The notes beneath the pieces are model-generated. The model was not told the DNA's origin and did not search any database. It saw nothing but the letters and a program-made list of their open reading frames with translations. From a virus: a DNA stretch of 21,268 nt. The stretch covers positions 1 to 21,268 of the IMG/VR virus record IMGVR_UViG_3300005613_000474, one strand, 5' to 3'. Below are positions 5,443 to 21,268 of the stretch, one piece after another (position 1 is the stretch's first letter; every line of letters begins with the position of its first letter). The position numbers and the translations under genes are program-made.

Positions 5443-6006
5443 TTATCCTTGTTGAGATAATCTTAATAATTGTTGATACAAATCGTCATTTACCGGCTCT
5501 AACTGGATTGATTGTTGCTGTGGCATAGGTTGAAATCCAGCGTCTTCTTCTTGGCTTCCGCCCAGTTGGTCTAATAAACCAGATGCGGTATTGGCGTACC
5601 CGGCATATTTCATCATCTTATCTAAGTCATTGACTTTATCTGCGGTTTTAATTACGATTTTACCTGTGTCAGACAACATGTATTTTGGCGCTAATATTGT
5701 TTGAGATGCTGCACTAGCCGTTGAGGTACTAGGCGCAACTGCTGATTGTAATAATCTTTCTGAACCTGTTAAAGCTGTTTTGGCTGCACCTGACGCAACT
5801 CCGCCAGCTTTTACAGCGGTTGCTCCCTTAGCAGCTGTACTGGCCGCTCCAATACCAAGGGCACTGCCAGCTCCACCAACTAAACCGCCTGTAGCACCAC
5901 CAAGCAATGCCCCTTTAGCAATATCTCCAAAACTCCCGCCTTTTGCTGCGCTAATTCCACCCCCAACTACTGCGCCTGCAATAGGTAATAACCATGGACC
6001 TGCCAT
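5443..6006 (-). CDS. Glycine/alanine-rich putative ejection or pore protein
   Basis: The 187-residue product starts MAGPWLLPIAGAVVGGGISA, and residues 1-75 are almost all Gly, Ala, Ser, Val, Leu and Thr, with many GxxxG spacings. A 45-residue Ser/Thr/Ala stretch follows, then a more polar C-terminus ending in a Gln- and Leu-rich segment. Such glycine-zipper N-termini are typical of phage proteins that insert into membranes during DNA delivery (T7 gp14 forms an outer-membrane pore). The role here is inferred from that and from position right after the GNAT gene. ATG 6006 shares its last base with the upstream TAA stop (TAATG), and GAGGGGGGT precedes it, inside the end of the upstream gene. Confidence 0.68.
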   Translation of the reverse strand: MAGPWLLPIAGAVVGGGISAAKGGSFGDIAKGALLGGATGGLVGGAGSALGIGAASTAAKGATAVKAGGVASGAAKTALTGSERLLQSAVAPSTSTASAASQTILAPKYMLSDTGKIVIKTADKVNDLDKMMKYAGYANTASGLLDQLGGSQEEDAGFQPMPQQQSIQLEPVNDDLYQQLLRLSQQG

Positions 6007-6509
6007 TACATACCCCCCTCTAAATACTCAGACTTTAACTGGCAATAAATAAGCTCATCCCAAAATTTACCCTGCCAAAAACAACTTTGTTTTAATCTGG
6101 CTTCAAATTTTAATCCGTTTAACCCACACATACGAATAATATCTTTTCGGTGAGGCAAAATTTTACAGTAGGCTTTATTGAAATCCAGATAATTAAAAAC
6201 GTAGTCTCTTAATTGATTAGCTGATTCAAATACTGTTTTCACCGTTTGTTTTGTATTAGCTTGAATTAATACGCCGTATTCCACAGATTTTGCGTTGTTG
6301 TCTACATTAATTAAACTGCATAATCCAATCGTTGCCTCGTCTTGTCTAATTAAATACGATGTACTAAAAGTTGTTAATACGGCTTGGTCATCCCCCCATG
6401 TAAACACAGGAGGAAAGCGTCTAAAAAATTCGCCATAATAAGGATCCGATGCCCACGTTTTAATTAGTTCGATATCCTCAATTGTAACAGATTTAAGCGA
6501 AATGATCAT
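6006..6509 (-). CDS. GNAT-family acetyltransferase-like protein (T7 gp13-like position)
   Basis: The 167-residue length is normal for a single GNAT domain. The N-terminus (ISLKSVTIEDIELIKTW) fits strand 1 plus helix 1. YVFNYLDFNKAYCKILPHRK at 103-122 and MCGLNGLKFEARLKQSCFWQ at 127-146, with GKFWDELIY at 147-155, fit the end of RimJ/RimL-type enzymes. The acetyl-CoA pyrophosphate loop, normally Q/RxxGxG/A, is degenerate here (about QANTKQTVKT at 83-92), so catalytic activity is doubtful. It sits immediately before the ejection proteins, where T7 has gene 13, whose family I recall as GNAT-like. It may be a structural or assembly protein rather than an enzyme. ATG 6509 overlaps the TGA of a 23-codon reading frame upstream. 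Confidence 0.72.
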   Translation of the reverse strand: MIISLKSVTIEDIELIKTWASDPYYGEFFRRFPPVFTWGDDQAVLTTFSTSYLIRQDEATIGLCSLINVDNNAKSVEYGVLIQANTKQTVKTVFESANQLRDYVFNYLDFNKAYCKILPHRKDIIRMCGLNGLKFEARLKQSCFWQGKFWDELIYCQLKSEYLEGGM

Positions 6510-13652: not shown

Positions 13653-15530
13653 TTATTGTCCTAGTCCCAGTGCTGCTAATGCATCCATAGTTGGGTTAAC
13701 ACCTAGCTCAGGTTGCCCTGCATTAGGCTGAGGAGCTGCTGCTCCTTGCTGAGCGTTAATAGCTTGCTGAGCTGCCATTTGCTGCATTTGCATTTGTTGC
13801 CGTTCTTCTGGTGTGTTTACAAAGCGTTTAACTTGGCGACCTAATAGAGGCCGCAAGAGAGCTTCTAGTATGACTTCACTCTTAATAGTACCAGGCTGGC
13901 TGTTTTCTACAGCCTGCAGGATTTGCGATACGGTTTGTATCTTTTGAAACTGCCCCTCTGGGCCTCCATTTTCCAACGTTGTCTCGACGTGGAAATCGAA
14001 GGCCCTGAAAAATGCGTCTGGCGGTAACTGTACGAAGGGGTTTGGCGTATTGGGGTCTAGTACGCGTACCCATTTTTCTTCGGTTACAAACTGCCGGTTA
14101 GTCAGTAGCATAAGCTTAGCTACCTGTTTAAAGTACATTTCAGCTAGCATGCGGGCTTTTAAGCTGATACGTGAGCTAGCAAAGCTTTGAATAAAGTTGA
14201 CACCAGTGGCTGAACGTCCAAATTGTTTGCCTAAGTTTGATGCAACAGGTGCAGCGTTAACCATGGCGGTAGCGTTTTGGATGTCATTCTGGATGAATGC
14301 CATCTCCTCACGAGATCCGATCGAAGGATCTAGGGGTGGGAGGGGTCTTATTGCGTTGACGTCGTTTGTCCAGATAACCCCGTTTGGCCTAGAGAACAAG
14401 CTCTTGGTGTTGATTCCTGCGGCCCGGTCTGCAATCCACATTGGGTTTACCGACAAGTTAATGTTATCGAGCCTAGCGTTCCGTAGCGTGTTAGCTTCTT
14501 TGATCAGTGAGCGTACGGCCATCAGCTCTGGTATGCCATAAAATTCAGACTCTCGGATGTAGTTGGGGCATGCTACAAATGGCTTAAACTTGTAATCGTA
14601 GAAGTTACGCTCGCACCGTAGCACTACGTCCCCGTTACCGATAACGATAATGTACTCTTCAAATTCACCGTCACCTTTAGGGTCGAATAACCCCCAGTAT
14701 TCCCATACTTCTACCGGACCTTCTTCTTTTACCCCCTCCTCATTATCATTGAGCCTATCGAATTCATCTTTATAAGCGTCGGAGTAGTAGGGTCTAGTCC
14801 AAGCGTCAGAACCTTTAGTTGCAACGCTATACTCTAGTTCGTCTACGTTTTTGTAAAGTGGATTTGCTTTAAGGCTAGCTACAGTTTTGAAAGTCCTGTG
14901 TACGCACGCGCGCATGGAGGCGACATCGCCGGGCTTTTTAACTGTCCAGTCAGGGAAGAAGTCATAGATAGGAATAAGTTCGAGGTCAGGACCATCGAAT
15001 AATACTTCTGTGGTAGGTACTTTAATAGATACAGATACGCCAGACTGTGGGTCTACTTGCGTAGTCCTTCGCATGGTCTCAATTTCTTTGTAGCGATAGG
15101 GTACTTTTGCAAAGGCAGTACCGTCTAATAGCATAGCTTTGATAAAAGCAGCTGTTTTGGCTTGGAATCCCATCTCTTCAAATTGATGGACGTGAAAATC
15201 GGTGATAGGATCTTCAAATTGTGCATCCTCAGCGTCCTGTCCTTTGAAAGAAATGACAGAACCGCCACGGAAAAAGATGTCAATAATCTGTGGAGTTTGG
15301 GTTTCGATGATAGTAAACCCGAAAGGTAGTTTAAGGTTGGCTCGTTGAACGATAGAACGGCTAGCAGGCGACCAGTTTTCATAGATTTCACGAGATTTGC
15401 GAGCGATTTCAACATGTGGCTCACGGTATTCGTCGCTTTTTGTCATAAAAGCACGAACGACACGTACAGCATGAATCTCCTTATCACGCTCAGGAACTTC
15501 GTTTACGTCTCTGTCAAATGGATTATACAT
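13653..15530 (-). CDS. Portal protein
   Basis: The 625-residue protein lies between the large terminase and the scaffold. Characteristic regions are IVQRANLKLPFGFTIIETQT (60-79), PIYDFFPDW (187-195), FVACPNYIRESEFYGIPELM (318-337), and then LIKEANTLRNARLDNINLSV (342-361), typical of the wing, crown and stem parts of podophage portals. The C-terminus (about 575-610) is Gln/Ala-rich. It forms the dodecameric ring through which DNA is packaged and to which the adaptor and tail bind. ATG 15530 lies three bases after the terminase stop, with AGGGT upstream. Confidence 0.85.
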   Translation of the reverse strand: MYNPFDRDVNEVPERDKEIHAVRVVRAFMTKSDEYREPHVEIARKSREIYENWSPASRSIVQRANLKLPFGFTIIETQTPQIIDIFFRGGSVISFKGQDAEDAQFEDPITDFHVHQFEEMGFQAKTAAFIKAMLLDGTAFAKVPYRYKEIETMRRTTQVDPQSGVSVSIKVPTTEVLFDGPDLELIPIYDFFPDWTVKKPGDVASMRACVHRTFKTVASLKANPLYKNVDELEYSVATKGSDAWTRPYYSDAYKDEFDRLNDNEEGVKEEGPVEVWEYWGLFDPKGDGEFEEYIIVIGNGDVVLRCERNFYDYKFKPFVACPNYIRESEFYGIPELMAVRSLIKEANTLRNARLDNINLSVNPMWIADRAAGINTKSLFSRPNGVIWTNDVNAIRPLPPLDPSIGSREEMAFIQNDIQNATAMVNAAPVASNLGKQFGRSATGVNFIQSFASSRISLKARMLAEMYFKQVAKLMLLTNRQFVTEEKWVRVLDPNTPNPFVQLPPDAFFRAFDFHVETTLENGGPEGQFQKIQTVSQILQAVENSQPGTIKSEVILEALLRPLLGRQVKRFVNTPEERQQMQMQQMAAQQAINAQQGAAAPQPNAGQPELGVNPTMDALAALGLGQ

Positions 15531-15533
15531 GTG

Positions 15534-17246
15534 TTACCCTATTATAAATCCCGTTTCGGGGTCAATAGCATACTCGCTTACTTCATATGAAGGTTGTTCA
15601 TCGCTATCCCAATTACGAGAGGTACTCATTTCTTCGGCTAAAGCAGCTGCCATCACTAAATCATCATGTGCGTCTGCGGTTGCTTGTCTCTTTACAGTTC
15701 CACCGCTTTTACCCGATATTTGAACAAATGTTGACATTTCTGAGATTAGCTCCTTATCAAGTATGATAAGTTTACCTTCTTTAGAAGCACTCTTAAGCTT
15801 CTCGGTGATCATAATCTTAGTCTGATTCGTGGTAACAAAACCTACTTTTTTTGTCGGTTTGTTAGTCATTTCATCTACGGTTGACCGCTTATATAAATTA
15901 CGGTAACCCATTTCTTTTAACACATGGACAACTACATGGCCATGATTATTGGCTTCAACGCATGCCCAAGCGTTATTATAAAATCTACCAAGCTTGTATA
16001 GTTCTCTAGCAAAATCAGCAGGAGCAAGGTCACCCCAAATGCGAGCAACAAGTTTATTAGTCTTGTTGTTTTTGACATAAGCAGCTCCATTATCTTGACC
16101 CACACCGCCACTGGGATCTGCCCCAATCGAATAAGTATGCGACGGGTCAGGTTCTTCCCAGATAGCGATGCATCCCTTTGGGTCGTCGTGTATTTCCATC
16201 TTGTTGCCGTCTGCAATCAAGTGGCCAACGAAAATAGGGTCTCTTGTGTTCCGGTCTTGCATCTTTAGGATGCTACTTGAGAACACGTTTGCATCGCCGG
16301 TTAAAAAACAGTCTTGGTCGTTGGTAGGGTATTCGTTTTCAAATAGCTCCTCATCCCCTCCACACTTTGCTTCAATGCACCAGCGACGCCAAAAAATATG
16401 CGCTTCACTAATCTTATTCTTATATGAGCTTAGTAGCTCTCGCTCTCGATTAGTAAGCGTTGTACCATCAGGCATATCCCAGTCTCCTGGGTTTTCCGGA
16501 TAGTGTTTATACCATGGCACAAAGCAACCTTTGTAAGGTGCGCTAGCTCCTTTAGCTCGCCAGCTTTGCCATAGTCTGTAAAATTCTCCGGATCTACCAG
16601 CAGCGGTTGATTCTAAAGTAATCTCGCCGTTGTCTGGTACTCCGTTTAGCGATCCTACTAGCCTGTCTTTTTCGATTCGCGCAGCTTCCGAAACGTGCAT
16701 GAAATGAATCGTTTTACCACGGAAGTCATGTAATACAAGAATAGAAGACTCCAGGGGACGGCCAAGACCATCGCTAGCAAAAGAAAGCGCTGTATTAGAG
16801 TCGCTTTTTTCCACCGGTTTGTAAAGATGGCCCCAATCGCGTACAAACCAATTATAACAGAACTTTGTGATATCATTAAAAATCGTTTTAACAACTTGCA
16901 GTTTGTGGCATAAAATGCCAGTCCTCATGTTGGATTCCCATAATGCATAATCAAGTGCTCTGATACAGTTCAGCGTTGTAAAGCCAACTTGCCTGCATTT
17001 GAGAATAATGTTCCTAGTATCTTTAGTTTTTAAGTACTGCTCTTGTGGAGCGTTAGGTACAAAAAACTTAGCTTGCTTTGTGAGCTTATCTTGAACCCTG
17101 TAAAGGTTACGGACTCTTTCTTCGTGTCCCAGCTCTAACATAGCGTCTCGAAAGGCCAGCATGCCCCTCTCTGGCCCTTCAAGCTCCGCTATCAATAAAA
17201 CCTTTTCATAGGCTTCTTTAAACTTTTTTGTAAAATGTTTAGCCAT
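15534..17246 (-). CDS. terL: Terminase large subunit
   Basis: From ATG 17246 the product is 570 residues. The ATPase domain has a Walker A-like KCRQVGFTT at 83-91, a Walker B plus catalytic Glu in IHFMHVSEAA (180-189), and a coupling motif ESTAAG at 212-217. The nuclease domain has Asp377 (YSIGADPSGG), Glu431 (ACVEANNHGH) and Asp528/529 (AHDDLVMAA), the expected acidic metal ligands. It packages DNA into the procapsid through the portal. ATG 17246 follows the preceding stop by two bases but has no clear ribosome site. A TTG at 17267 in frame, with GGA nearby, would add seven residues. No small terminase gene is recognised in the window. Confidence 0.92.
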   Translation of the reverse strand: MAKHFTKKFKEAYEKVLLIAELEGPERGMLAFRDAMLELGHEERVRNLYRVQDKLTKQAKFFVPNAPQEQYLKTKDTRNIILKCRQVGFTTLNCIRALDYALWESNMRTGILCHKLQVVKTIFNDITKFCYNWFVRDWGHLYKPVEKSDSNTALSFASDGLGRPLESSILVLHDFRGKTIHFMHVSEAARIEKDRLVGSLNGVPDNGEITLESTAAGRSGEFYRLWQSWRAKGASAPYKGCFVPWYKHYPENPGDWDMPDGTTLTNRERELLSSYKNKISEAHIFWRRWCIEAKCGGDEELFENEYPTNDQDCFLTGDANVFSSSILKMQDRNTRDPIFVGHLIADGNKMEIHDDPKGCIAIWEEPDPSHTYSIGADPSGGVGQDNGAAYVKNNKTNKLVARIWGDLAPADFARELYKLGRFYNNAWACVEANNHGHVVVHVLKEMGYRNLYKRSTVDEMTNKPTKKVGFVTTNQTKIMITEKLKSASKEGKLIILDKELISEMSTFVQISGKSGGTVKRQATADAHDDLVMAAALAEEMSTSRNWDSDEQPSYEVSEYAIDPETGFIIG

Positions 17247-17248
17247 TT

Positions 17249-17569
17249 TTAATACAAAGCTTGCCAAGCTGTTCCATCATAGCCGTAGTGTTTATTGTTT
17301 GTCGTATCATATACGATCATGCCAGCAACTGCTGACAAGGCTAAGCGTTCAGCTTGCGTTATACCTTCTAGCGGTATAACTTGTAAACTTTGTAAAATGC
17401 TAACTTTGTTTTCACGTCCTTGTTCGTCAACTTGGTAAAGGACGCCTTCTTTCATATATAGCTCTACAGTATTTGCCTGTGGAGCGCTGCTAGCTTCTCG
17501 CTGGTTACGCAGACGTATGCTGTCTAGTGCATATGTGCTGCGACCGTCTTGTAGTTTAACGAATGACAT
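17249..17569 (-). CDS. Small fibre-tip-like protein
   Basis: The 106-residue product has an N-terminus MSFVKLQDGRSTYALDSIRL, a middle of short strands, and a C-terminus GMIVYDTTNNKHYGYDGTAW that resembles the ends of tail-fibre tips (pattern VYDTTTNK...YDGTAW). Related motifs occur in the fibre at 18676 (IYVWDGSAW) and the collar fibre (VLYDSTKKEV). It lies between the propeller protein and terminase. It probably belongs to the adsorption apparatus rather than packaging, despite its position next to terminase. ATG 17569 has no Shine-Dalgarno, but the upstream stop is only three bases away, so translation may be coupled. Confidence 0.6.
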   Translation of the reverse strand: MSFVKLQDGRSTYALDSIRLRNQREASSAPQANTVELYMKEGVLYQVDEQGRENKVSILQSLQVIPLEGITQAERLALSAVAGMIVYDTTNNKHYGYDGTAWQALY

Positions 17570-17572
17570 AAT

Positions 17573-18676
17573 TTACAGTTTATTATAATAAGCGGATAAA
17601 CTTACATTTATGTTAAAGCCACCCCCGCCGCCATAAATGCGTGCAGACGTTGAATTGTACGGCACGCAAAATACTCGTCCGTCTGGCAGAAGGACGCCTC
17701 CAACAAAAGAACTACTTCCAGGATATGATCCTGTAGGCGTGCTAAGCGTATCGGTTACTGGATCATATATGCGTGCAGACGCTGAACTGAACGGCACGCA
17801 AAAAACTCTACCGTCTGGTAAAAGAACGCCACCGATAAAAGCATTACTTCCAGGATATGATCCTGTAGGCGTGCTAACCGTATCGGTAACTGGATCATAA
17901 ATGCGAGCAGTCGTTGAGTTACGGGGAACACAAAATACTCGTCCGTCTGGTAAAAGAACGCCACCCATAAAAGCAGTACTTCCAGGATATGATCCTGTAG
18001 GCGTGCTAACCGTATCGGTAACTGGATCATATATGCGAGCAGACGTTGAATTGAACGGCACGCAAAAAACTCTACCGTCTGGTAAAAGAACGCCTCCAGC
18101 AAAAGCATTACTTCCAGGATACGTTCCAGTCGGAGTGCTAAGCGTATCGGTTACTGGATCATATATGCGTGCAGAGTTTGAATTGAACGGCACGCAAAAG
18201 ACTCGTCCGTCCGGTAAAAGAACGCCACCGATAAAAGCAGTAGGTCCCGGAGATGTACCGGATGGGGTACTAACAGAATCAGTAACCGGATCGTAAATGC
18301 GAGCAGACGCTGAAATGTACGGCACGCAAAAGACTCGTCCGTCTGGCAGAAGGACGCCTCCAGTAAAAGCACCATTTCCAGGATACGTTCCAGACGGTGT
18401 AGTAAGAGTATCGGTAACTGGATCATAAATGCGAGCAGTCGTTGAGCTATTTGGCGCGCAAAAGACTCGTCCGTCCGGTAAAAGAACGCCTCCAAAAAAA
18501 GCGTTACTTCCCGGATATGCACCGGACGGAGTTGTTAATGTATCACTAACTGTAGTAGTTGCGATCGTTCCATTGATGCTCGTTTGATAAGCAGGCCAAT
18601 AGCTTGGACCGATAAGCCTCCAATCAAGACTGCTAGCTTGTTGGCGTCTAAAATTAATAAGTCTTAATAAGTTCAT
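17573..18676 (-). CDS. Seven-repeat kelch-like beta-propeller protein of the adsorption cassette
   Basis: The 367-residue product has an N-terminal 43-residue segment, then seven repeats of 44 residues without insertion or deletion (residues 44-87, 88-131, 132-175, 176-219, 220-263, 264-307, 308-348), and a Gly-rich C-terminus ending FNINVSLSAYYNKL. Each repeat reads roughly TDTLSTPTGTYPGSNAF, GGVLLPDGRVFCVP, ARIYDPV. GGxLLPDGRV and YDPxTD are the kelch/galactose-oxidase signature, and seven blades close a propeller ring. A Cys sits at the same place in every blade (73, 117, 161, 205, 249, 293, 337). It lacks visible enzyme residues, so glycan or surface binding is likely; this is inference. 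ATG 18676 overlaps the preceding TAA (TAATG), with no clear ribosome site. Confidence 0.75.
   Translation of the reverse strand: MNLLRLINFRRQQASSLDWRLIGPSYWPAYQTSINGTIATTTVSDTLTTPSGAYPGSNAFFGGVLLPDGRVFCAPNSSTTARIYDPVTDTLTTPSGTYPGNGAFTGGVLLPDGRVFCVPYISASARIYDPVTDSVSTPSGTSPGPTAFIGGVLLPDGRVFCVPFNSNSARIYDPVTDTLSTPTGTYPGSNAFAGGVLLPDGRVFCVPFNSTSARIYDPVTDTVSTPTGSYPGSTAFMGGVLLPDGRVFCVPRNSTTARIYDPVTDTVSTPTGSYPGSNAFIGGVLLPDGRVFCVPFSSASARIYDPVTDTLSTPTGSYPGSSSFVGGVLLPDGRVFCVPYNSTSARIYGGGGGFNINVSLSAYYNKL
17633..18547 (-). repeat. Seven tandem 132-base repeats encoding the propeller blades
   Basis: The unit length is 132 bases (44 codons), and the last unit is cut three codons short. Neighbouring units are nearly identical over long stretches, with recurring words such as GGATCATA, CTGGTAAAAGAACGCC and CTTCCAGGATATG on the plus strand. 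No unit is interrupted. High similarity at the base level suggests recent expansion or gene conversion. Confidence 0.9.
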
Positions 18677-20280
18677 TAGCTAAAGTCTGCTGCAAAGGTT
18701 CCGTAATAAGTAACCGTTCCCCCACCATCATCAATGTAGAGTAAATTAATAATGTCCACATCTCCCGTGGTGCCAGACAAAGTCGGAGCGGTTCCGCCGG
18801 GCCAGACGGCGTCTGCAAATCCTCCGGCAGTAAAGTCAATTGTGCCAGGGGTTGCGCCTTGAATAACTCTTAAAACGTATGCTCCGCCTTGCACTGGATT
18901 ACTTAAAGTAACGGTAGCATTTGAAGTGCCATTAAGTGTGACTGTTTGAACGGGAGAATTTGCCCAATCGATTGTAAAGTTTGTGGTTTCAGTTCCCTCG
19001 TCGTAATGAACCGGGCTTAAAATGTAATTAGGAACTTTTAAGTTTCCAGAGGCGTCAAGCGTCATGTTTGCGCCAACAACGCCACCGGATCTAAAACACA
19101 AGTCATCGCCAGTTGCCCCAATGCCTACATGGGTATCACTTGTCGTGGTTGAGTCTTGTAAAGTAATTCCTCCGCCGGTTGTATCGCTTTGAAAAGTTGC
19201 AACACATTGATTTGGACCACTAAAAACATGGAATTTTTTTGTAGGAGCAACTACGTTAATTCCAACGTCCCCTTCGCCAGTAATTCGCATAACTTCTGAC
19301 AAAGCGTTTTGCACGTTATTGCTAATAAGACCGGCAGGAGCCGTCTGAAATCTTATAGGGCCACCGGTTCCAGTTCCGGTTCCTTGGGCTCCGTTTATTG
19401 ACAAAATTCCTGTTGATGCGTCGCCATCGTTTACGGATCCGCCGGTGATATAGCTATTTGCAAAAATTTGATTTTCGCTCAAAGAAACCGTAAATTGCCT
19501 TTGAGCCCCCATGTTGTTTAAATACAAACGAGTGCTCTTTCCTAACAGCGTTGAATTTGCAACTGTTGCAGGAAGTAAAAAACCTATTGCATTGCTAACG
19601 CTTATTGTAGTTGCCAATCCATAAGAACCAATGTGTAAACTTCCAGCTCCGGTTACCCTACACAATTGACCGATAGCAATGTTGTCCCCGTTGGCAGTTG
19701 CTTGCGCCGCTCTTCCAATGGCGGTTGATCTAGCATTTTCTGCCCTAGCTTGATAACCAATAGCTGTATTTTGGTTAGCTTCGCAATAAGCTTGATAACC
19801 TATTGCGACGCTTTCTCCGCTTCCCCCTTGCGCCTCATTTCCAATTACAACACCATTGTTTCCATTATTTTGCTCAACGGCTTGATACCCAATACAAACG
19901 TTTCCGGTTCCCGTAGTAAGGTTTGTGCCGCCAGAATTTACGCCAACTAAAATATTTTTAATTCCAGAAAGAGTGGCGGGTTTTGCTCTTCCGACAATAA
20001 TTGTATCAGTAGGATAGGCAGCCGTTGTAGAACCAGTTCCAACGGTTCTCCATTCGGCGGCAGTAGAGGTTGAGTAAAGAACTTTGTCATCGTCAAACGC
20101 GGGTAAAGAACTTCCTCCAACGTTTTGCCAGGCGCTTCCGTCCCAAACATAAATTTCGCTTGTGGATTCAGTGACTCTAGCGTCACCCAGTTCGTTTCCG
20201 CTTGCTGGTAAACTTGCCGGATCAGCAACAGGGTCTTTCCAACTTGCAGAACCGTAAGAAGGAATATTAATAAAAGGCAT
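18676..20280 (-). CDS. Tail fibre with YadA-like repeats and C-terminal beta domain
   Basis: The 534-residue protein has an N-terminal attachment part with IYVWDGSAW (43-51). About residues 108-250 hold left-handed beta-roll repeats of the YadA/Hep-Hag type (GNVCIGYQA, VVIGNEAQG, SVAIGYQAY, NTAIGYQARA, STAIGRAAQA, NIAIGQLCR). Next is a segment with RFQTAPAG and MRITGEGDVG (310-340), which parallels the fibre at the right edge, then a polar domain (350-420). The C-terminal beta domain (about 428-534) has AYVLRVIQGATPGT and AVWPGGTAPTLSG, typical of fibre tips. YadA-like repeats and this C-terminus suggest a trimeric host-recognition fibre. ATG 20280 has GGAG in good position. Confidence 0.78.
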   Translation of the reverse strand: MPFINIPSYGSASWKDPVADPASLPASGNELGDARVTESTSEIYVWDGSAWQNVGGSSLPAFDDDKVLYSTSTAAEWRTVGTGSTTAAYPTDTIIVGRAKPATLSGIKNILVGVNSGGTNLTTGTGNVCIGYQAVEQNNGNNGVVIGNEAQGGSGESVAIGYQAYCEANQNTAIGYQARAENARSTAIGRAAQATANGDNIAIGQLCRVTGAGSLHIGSYGLATTISVSNAIGFLLPATVANSTLLGKSTRLYLNNMGAQRQFTVSLSENQIFANSYITGGSVNDGDASTGILSINGAQGTGTGTGGPIRFQTAPAGLISNNVQNALSEVMRITGEGDVGINVVAPTKKFHVFSGPNQCVATFQSDTTGGGITLQDSTTTSDTHVGIGATGDDLCFRSGGVVGANMTLDASGNLKVPNYILSPVHYDEGTETTNFTIDWANSPVQTVTLNGTSNATVTLSNPVQGGAYVLRVIQGATPGTIDFTAGGFADAVWPGGTAPTLSGTTGDVDIINLLYIDDGGGTVTYYGTFAADFS

Positions 20281-20650: not shown

Positions 20651-21268
20651 TTATGTGCCGTCTGTTGTGGCAAGTAAGTAATAAACTGTTCCGTTTACTT
20701 TAATTGCAATCTTGTGTGTGACCGACGTGTTTGTAATTCCAGCGCCCGTCATTCCGGTGCCTTCACTTCTGACATAGGGAATTGTATTTCCAGCGGTTAA
20801 ATCAACAGAGCCCATCACGATTTGATCTGCAACTGACGTTGAAGGCTCAGTGCCGTTTGCAATCCCAAAAGCAGCGGCAGCGCTTGTGCCAAAGGACGAG
20901 GCTTTTACGCCCACGTTTCCATCATAAAGTTTTAACGCAGGAAAATCGACGTTATTATTTCTTGTTCCCAGCGTTAAAATGAAATTTGACCCGGAAGGAG
21001 TACCAAATTCCATGTAACCGTTATATCTAGTCGATTCCTGTCGAGACAAAGTTATCAAACGCTGTTCTGTGTAACCCACAGGGTTTCCTACTTCTAGTTT
21101 TGTTGCAGGCGTTGCCGTTCCAATTCCCACGTTTCCAGTGCTATCAATGCGCATTCTTTCTGCGACCGTCGTGGAACCAGTTGGAGTTGTGTTAAAAGTT
21201 ATATATGTTCCCTGGGCTGAATCAGTTATGTCTTCCGCAGCCCTAAATGCAATAGAGGCCCTGGTGCC
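20651..21268 (-). CDS. C-terminal part of a tail fibre, start beyond right edge
   Basis: The frame is open from the window edge for 205 codons to TAA at 20651. An internal Met at 21154 is not the start, because 38 codons upstream continue without stop and contain fibre-like sequence (GTYITFNTTPTGSTTVAERM). Typical tail-fibre segments follow: MRIDSTGNVGIGTATPATKL, then a Ser/Thr/Gly-rich portion and C-terminal TVYYLLATTDGT. The GNVGIG...P..KLEV module is widespread in phage fibres and shows a related copy in the next-but-one gene. It recognises or supports host attachment; the N-terminal virion-binding part is not in the window. Confidence 0.78.
   Translation of the reverse strand, partial: GTRASIAFRAAEDITDSAQGTYITFNTTPTGSTTVAERMRIDSTGNVGIGTATPATKLEVGNPVGYTEQRLITLSRQESTRYNGYMEFGTPSGSNFILTLGTRNNNVDFPALKLYDGNVGVKASSFGTSAAAAFGIANGTEPSTSVADQIVMGSVDLTAGNTIPYVRSEGTGMTGAGITNTSVTHKIAIKVNGTVYYLLATTDGT

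Follow-up and report, generated by a model that had tools for sequence, protein, structure and literature searches.

The 367-residue protein encoded beside a fibre gene in the window (the whole 21,268-nucleotide stretch of viral DNA analysed here) is probably a separately encoded, exchangeable fibre-tip adhesin of the gp38 type, with a propeller head and an N-terminus docked on the fibre. The receptor-binding role proposed in the initial annotation is supported as probable by exchange of the head as a module among close relatives, by variability on one face of the predicted ring and by tail-gene neighbours in unrelated phages. The strongest evidence for this role is a lectin-like replacement behind the same N-terminus. 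Coordinates of the features are given in Table 1.

Table 1. Features of the propeller locus and of neighbouring genes, in window positions
Feature	Position	Strand	Basis or remark
Propeller gene, 367 aa	17573..18676	(-)	ATG start at 18676; 1-nt overlap with the upstream fibre stop, TAATG
Seven gapless 44-residue blade units, residues 42-349	17630..18553	(-)	Repeat comparison; 7 x 4 strands predicted
N-terminal plug peptide MNLLRLINFRRQQA	18635..18676	(-)	Common to non-propeller slot proteins of relatives
Helix, residues 24-40, around YWPAYQTSINGTIAT	18557..18607	(-)	AlphaFold2 model
C-terminal tail GGGGFNINVSLSAYYNKL	17576..17629	(-)	Compared across relatives
534-aa fibre-like gene (fib534), C-terminal domain DEGTETTNFTIDW...	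18676..20280	(-)	Weak YadA-head and tail-fibre matches; in relatives the C-terminal domain comes before slot genes
106-aa ORF (g106)	17249..17569	(-)	L078/L079 identity begins at its first base
Large terminase subunit	15534..17267	(-)	phrog_2, 5e-32
Portal protein, SU10-type	13653..15530	(-)	PF23899, 6.5e-44

Blades of the propeller protein follow one another at spacings of 44, 44, 44, 44, 44 and 44 residues without gaps. Residue identities at a lag of 44 numbered 219/323 in the window protein, whereas none of 2000 shuffles gave more than 43, and the 132-bp array was also picked up by TRF in the window DNA. The seven gapless 44-residue units described in the initial annotation were thus confirmed, and the span given there, 17633-18547, is correct within a few bases. 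Pairwise blade identity in the window protein was 66-89% for protein and 73-89% for DNA, with blades 1 and 3 the most divergent; the blades are highly alike, as had been claimed, and are not near-identical. The repeat also contains two long open frames, at 17637-18296 (+) and, in another frame, at 17755-18522 (-); both are in all likelihood by-products of the DNA periodicity and not genes. The location in a fibre cassette by the terminase also held, as the 534-residue fibre-like gene lies upstream and g106 lies between the propeller gene and the large terminase gene. The window gene is thereby encoded within a tail/fibre cassette, a property by which receptor-binding proteins are recognised.

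The fold was predicted with AlphaFold2. A ring of medium confidence was obtained without relatives, and with 30 family members the model was a closed ring of 7 x 4 strands (pLDDT 92.6, pTM 0.90) carrying a helix at residues 24-40 and an N-terminal helix (2-14) of low confidence. Stretches resembling W..(Y/F)...L...I precede the first blade in many relatives and may be compared with the helix at 24-40. Judged from the strand order, the units have a d-a-b-c register, which implies that the last blade is completed by the N-terminal strand, as is usual when propeller rings close. Comparison with known structures using Foldseek placed seven-bladed virginiamycin B lyase (Vgb; TM 0.86 by target length) and galactose oxidase among the nearest solved structures, with designed seven-bladed rings at TM 0.78 and six-bladed KEAP1-type kelch domains lower at TM about 0.63. 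The closed seven-bladed ring first proposed from the repeat count is therefore upheld as a prediction.

Relatives of the window phage were collected by a terminase search, which gave 36. In L078/L079 the terminase is 99.5% identical and the DNA 97.2% identical over 10,034 bp, and the match to the window breaks off precisely at 17569, where g106 has its first base. The position of the propeller gene (the slot) is occupied in L078/L079 by a lectin-like ORF of 258 residues, whose Laminin-G/concanavalin-type match is weak (3.8e-4) and falls short of the curated cut-off, and about 60% identity to the window fibre is retained only across the last 114-120 residues of their fibre. Since this swap replaces the upstream fibres too, it does not prove that the slot gene alone sets specificity. 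The terminase of L031 is 94% identical and its propeller, at the same position, only 57% identical to that of the window; L080 carries a third kind of domain in the slot. A start of the form M(S/N)LLRLI(T/N)FR is shared by the propellers of the window (MSLLRLITFR), L031 and L058 and by the slot proteins of L078/L079 and L080. A further protein, in L094, has a Laminin-G match above cut-off (5e-15) and an N-terminus, MNLLRLITTR, that is nearly identical to the plug.

When 2.9 million viral contigs were scanned for the plug peptide, seven contained a match, and six of these have the fibre-tip/slot arrangement. The match in the seventh, L126, was rejected as an out-of-frame chance match. In L124 the C-terminus of the fibre closely resembles that of the window and is followed by the plug and two copies of the third domain; no match to a window-type terminase was found in L124. 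In the window, and likewise in L124, the fibre stop shares one base with the start of the slot gene. The two tandem DxDAQAFITAAGIT... domains of the L124 slot protein are encoded at 687-2231; the domain is single in L080 and L100 and also occurs at the fibre end in L083, and no Pfam family was found for the copies of L080, L100 and L083. A separate gene after the fibre, a conserved N-terminus and a variable head are features of a gp38-type tip that the slot gene displays, the upstream gene presumably being the distal fibre. The slot gene is absent in L085, L086 and L088, where the fibre directly precedes g106. Compared with that of the window, g106 is 96-100% identical where a slot gene is present (L079, L080, L031) and also in L081, whose sequence does not cover the slot; the figure falls to 61-63% in relatives that lack a slot gene, though their terminase is still 88-92% identical. 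On this sequence pattern g106 could be the slot protein's partner.

Variability was compared along the blade for 392 distinct blades. Columns 20, 35, 17, 36 and 16 were the most variable, and the LLPDGRVF and IY stretches were nearly invariant. The DA and BC loops of a propeller form one face, and the AB and CD turns the other. The DA and BC loops were more variable than the AB and CD turns by 1.06 bits across the family (p=0.0011) and by 0.64 bits within the window protein (p=0.0085), in permutations that treated columns as independent. Synonymous changes were distributed across the conserved part of the blades, and the framework is therefore under purifying selection.

Relatives of the propeller were sought in viral contigs, giving 76 loci, some of which are one phage in several samples; dereplication left at least 46 distinct seven-bladed proteins. 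Blade number in the 73 contig-internal ORFs was seven in 63, six in five, and 1, 3, 4, 5 and 8 in one each, the one-blade ORF being a fragment. Related pairs differing in blade number were L036 (six) and L008 (seven), and L046 (eight) and L032 (seven); L046 contains an exact 220-bp duplication. Exact DNA repeats of 30-200 bp are present, so some low blade counts may reflect assembly collapse. Relatives with other repeat numbers are thus found and are few. The earlier suggestion that blade number could change by recombination agrees with the deviants (3, 4, 5, 6, 8), and free change as the rule is contradicted by the seven blades of 63/73 ORFs.

Blade identity within proteins averaged 0.65 over the 46 proteins (0.80 in the window protein), and between proteins it was 0.566 in the same register and 0.560 in other registers. 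Because blades are more alike within than between proteins and keep no memory of register, the blade pattern is of the kind that repeated re-amplification or gene conversion would leave. The same two properties mark highly repetitive propellers. L070 seems to be chimeric, combining two paralogous propellers (first and third copies). Three propeller genes with different N-termini lie close together in L008 (2936-6987), L040 (5587-9756), L048 (5986-11081) and L056 (5695-10176). The C-terminus follows the form S/G..N(K/R)x in 50/58 distinct propellers across unrelated phages, and 11/802 control ORFs end in N(K/R)x; one might guess that the conserved tail is a docking or ring-locking part.

Among 84,980 species genomes only one close relative was found, in an Afipia contig, where it adjoins fibre-like ORFs and a lysozyme-like ORF (named by reading the sequences) and probably lies in a prophage-like context. 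Matches in cultured phages (Cylindrospermopsis, Vibrio) reached only about 29% identity, most of them carrying the label hypothetical, and no close cultured relative was found by terminase, the best being 35%. Reverse transcriptase, the hallmark of a diversity-generating retroelement, was found in none of 15 records, a set that includes fragments, with control genomes positive, and the propeller gene was rejected as a target of such an element.

The gene neighbourhood of the propeller was compared in unrelated phages. A neighbour matches central tail fibre J in the L038 group, and genes with matches to collagen-like tail fibres lie nearby in L047 and to a baseplate wedge in L017. Tail fibre matches were found near the propeller gene of L071, L058, L057 and L076, and minor tail protein matches near that of L045 and L037. 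Several neighbours match families of unknown function only, or nothing, and the propeller gene of L010 adjoins head-morphogenesis genes.

The window protein is a member of the broad kelch/galactose-oxidase superfamily and is neither a strict kelch protein nor an oxidase. Pfam Kelch_1 (PF01344) matched at 26.2 bits against a cut-off of 20.1, no single stretch being significant alone, and the family profile found galactose-oxidase-type seven-bladed propellers nearest among solved structures (2.2e-10; PDB 9g43 and 1gof named). Likeness to the superfamily lies in this profile match, in the seven blades, as in galactose oxidase, and in the conserved LpDGrV and YDP.T motifs. The kelch diglycine at the end of strand b is absent, the strand ending C-V-P instead (P in 377/392 distinct blades); the kelch Trp of strand d is replaced by L/V, with the Tyr (column 43) retained, and the only Trp residues of the window protein are Trp19 and Trp27. 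The label kelch-like therefore stands in its wide sense, from the profile, and fails in its strict sense. The best Pfam match, DUF4651 (2.9e-12), was ignored as a short match multiplied by the repeat, as were several other Pfam, PHROG and NCBIfam matches, also short and repeat-multiplied and mostly without a significant single stretch. An enzyme acting on surface glycans, of galactose-oxidase or sialidase type, would agree with galactose oxidases as the nearest solved relatives by profile and with the best NCBIfam match, a stretch of the copper oxidase GlxA. That match covers about one blade and reaches 57 of the required 800 bits, and among the near-repeat blades none is distinct as a catalytic blade. 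The copper ligands of those oxidases include two His; the window protein contains no histidine and hence no copper site of the galactose-oxidase type. An enzyme is highly improbable on these grounds, in keeping with the initial view that the protein is not of oxidase type.

A tail decoration or structural protein, such as a whisker or spacer, in which the propeller would be only a stable scaffold without receptor binding, is unlikely. In its favour, jumbo phages are reported to carry kelch proteins for which no binding is known, one of them a virion component (CBB_552, PMC5259590), several viral Foldseek matches are labelled virion structural protein, and podophage SU10 has a structural propeller in its nozzle (PMC9509320). 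Against such a role, exchange for a Laminin-G protein behind the same N-terminus and variability on one face are what recognition parts, rather than scaffolds, typically show, and the propeller gene is separate from the 690-residue virion-structural gene of the window. A gene that follows the fibre gene immediately, and whose start overlaps the fibre stop, would also suit a fibre-assembly chaperone like T4 gp38, which is such a chaperone (PMC12892980), not retained in the virion; a change of fold between phages that are 97% identical would be unexpected for a chaperone, and the lectin-like replacement hard to explain, which makes this reading very unlikely. The low blade numbers of a few deviants would fit an accessory protein outside the virion, with a secreted or host-altering role, whose gene lies in the fibre region by chance. 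This is scarcely credible given the overlap of its start with the fibre stop in the window and L124 and the tail-type neighbours in several unrelated phages.

As a fibre-tip adhesin, the protein would be carried on the virion, with its short N-terminal segment docked on the product of the adjacent upstream fibre gene, at the conserved C-terminal domain, and the seven-bladed propeller as the head contacting the cell. The seven blades would offer repeated, slightly different DA/BC-loop sites on one face around the channel, an arrangement suited to weak, multivalent binding of a ligand that may be a repeating surface glycan or protein. Recombination at the slot edges would let phages exchange the whole head. 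Blades would be homogenised within the gene, and ring closure would hold their count at seven.

A propeller adhesin has precedents, contrary to the initial annotation, which regarded it as unusual: phi11 Gp45, a receptor-binding protein, PRD1 P2 and PhiKZ gp131C are named as propellers in PMC4901313, and CBB_552 is described in PMC5259590. Gp45 is likewise a virion-borne beta-propeller with a receptor-binding role, which is suspected for PRD1 P2 and PhiKZ gp131C (PMC4901313). Its last blade is closed by an N-terminal strand and three C-terminal strands, and the unit register of the window protein suggests the same. The phi11 and PRD1 propellers have five blades, in contrast to seven near-repeat blades here, and that of phi11 forms part of a larger trimeric protein that has a stem of its own, whereas the window protein is small and separate (PMC4901313). 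The gp38 of T-even phages binds gp37 by its N-terminus and varies in its head (PMC12892980). The tips of T2, S16 and PP01 resemble the slot protein in being encoded by a separate gene, in N-terminal attachment to the distal fibre, which for the window protein is presumed, and in a variable recognition part whose head is exchangeable in chimeras (PMC12892980). Their head is a poly-glycine II sandwich, whereas that of the window protein is a predicted propeller with no sequence relation seen.

Amplification of blades from single blades is shared with highly repetitive beta-propellers (PMC9218822; oligomeric, PMC6805158), which include members of the kelch superfamily and in which viruses are represented (PMC9218822). 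The main text of PMC9218822 does not mention phages, and here seven blades are held in a large phage family. The jumbo-phage kelch proteins (CBB_550/552/554, phage EL) are also kelch-type propellers, one found in the virion; they are described as six-bladed, near-repeat blades are not reported for them (PMC5259590), and their Foldseek match is weak (TM about 0.35-0.64). A search of a limited set of open-access literature found no highly repetitive propeller described as an exchangeable phage tip. Propeller adhesins, virion kelch proteins and highly repetitive propellers are known already, and their combination and the plug-in arrangement look new.

We tentatively suggest, as a possibility somewhat short of an even chance, that such tips are general plug-in parts, in which unrelated heads share a ten-residue N-terminal peptide and one fibre-tip domain, hosts are changed by the swap of one small gene, and seven co-evolving sites provide avidity. 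If so, one fibre-tip domain would take re-amplifying propellers, Laminin-G lectins and a third domain type, and in the propeller one variable binding site would be present seven times, the copies evolving together. The receptor-binding parts of uncultured phages are mostly unknown, and a small, self-contained head with a recognisable plug and a sharp exchange boundary helps both to identify and to compare host-recognition modules. The family is also a natural case in which propeller blades would be homogenised repeatedly with their number kept at seven by ring closure.

Two further observations were made outside the propeller gene. Window positions 21090-21268 and positions 5441-5619 of L058, both in fibre genes, are 97.2% identical in DNA over 179 bp, and because of this identity a recent exchange of fibre DNA between the two is indicated; no window-type terminase was found in the L058 contig. 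A 167-residue ORF at 6006-6509 (-), which we take to resemble a GNAT acetyltransferase, sits within the structural gene region and adjoins a tail-collar fibre gene.
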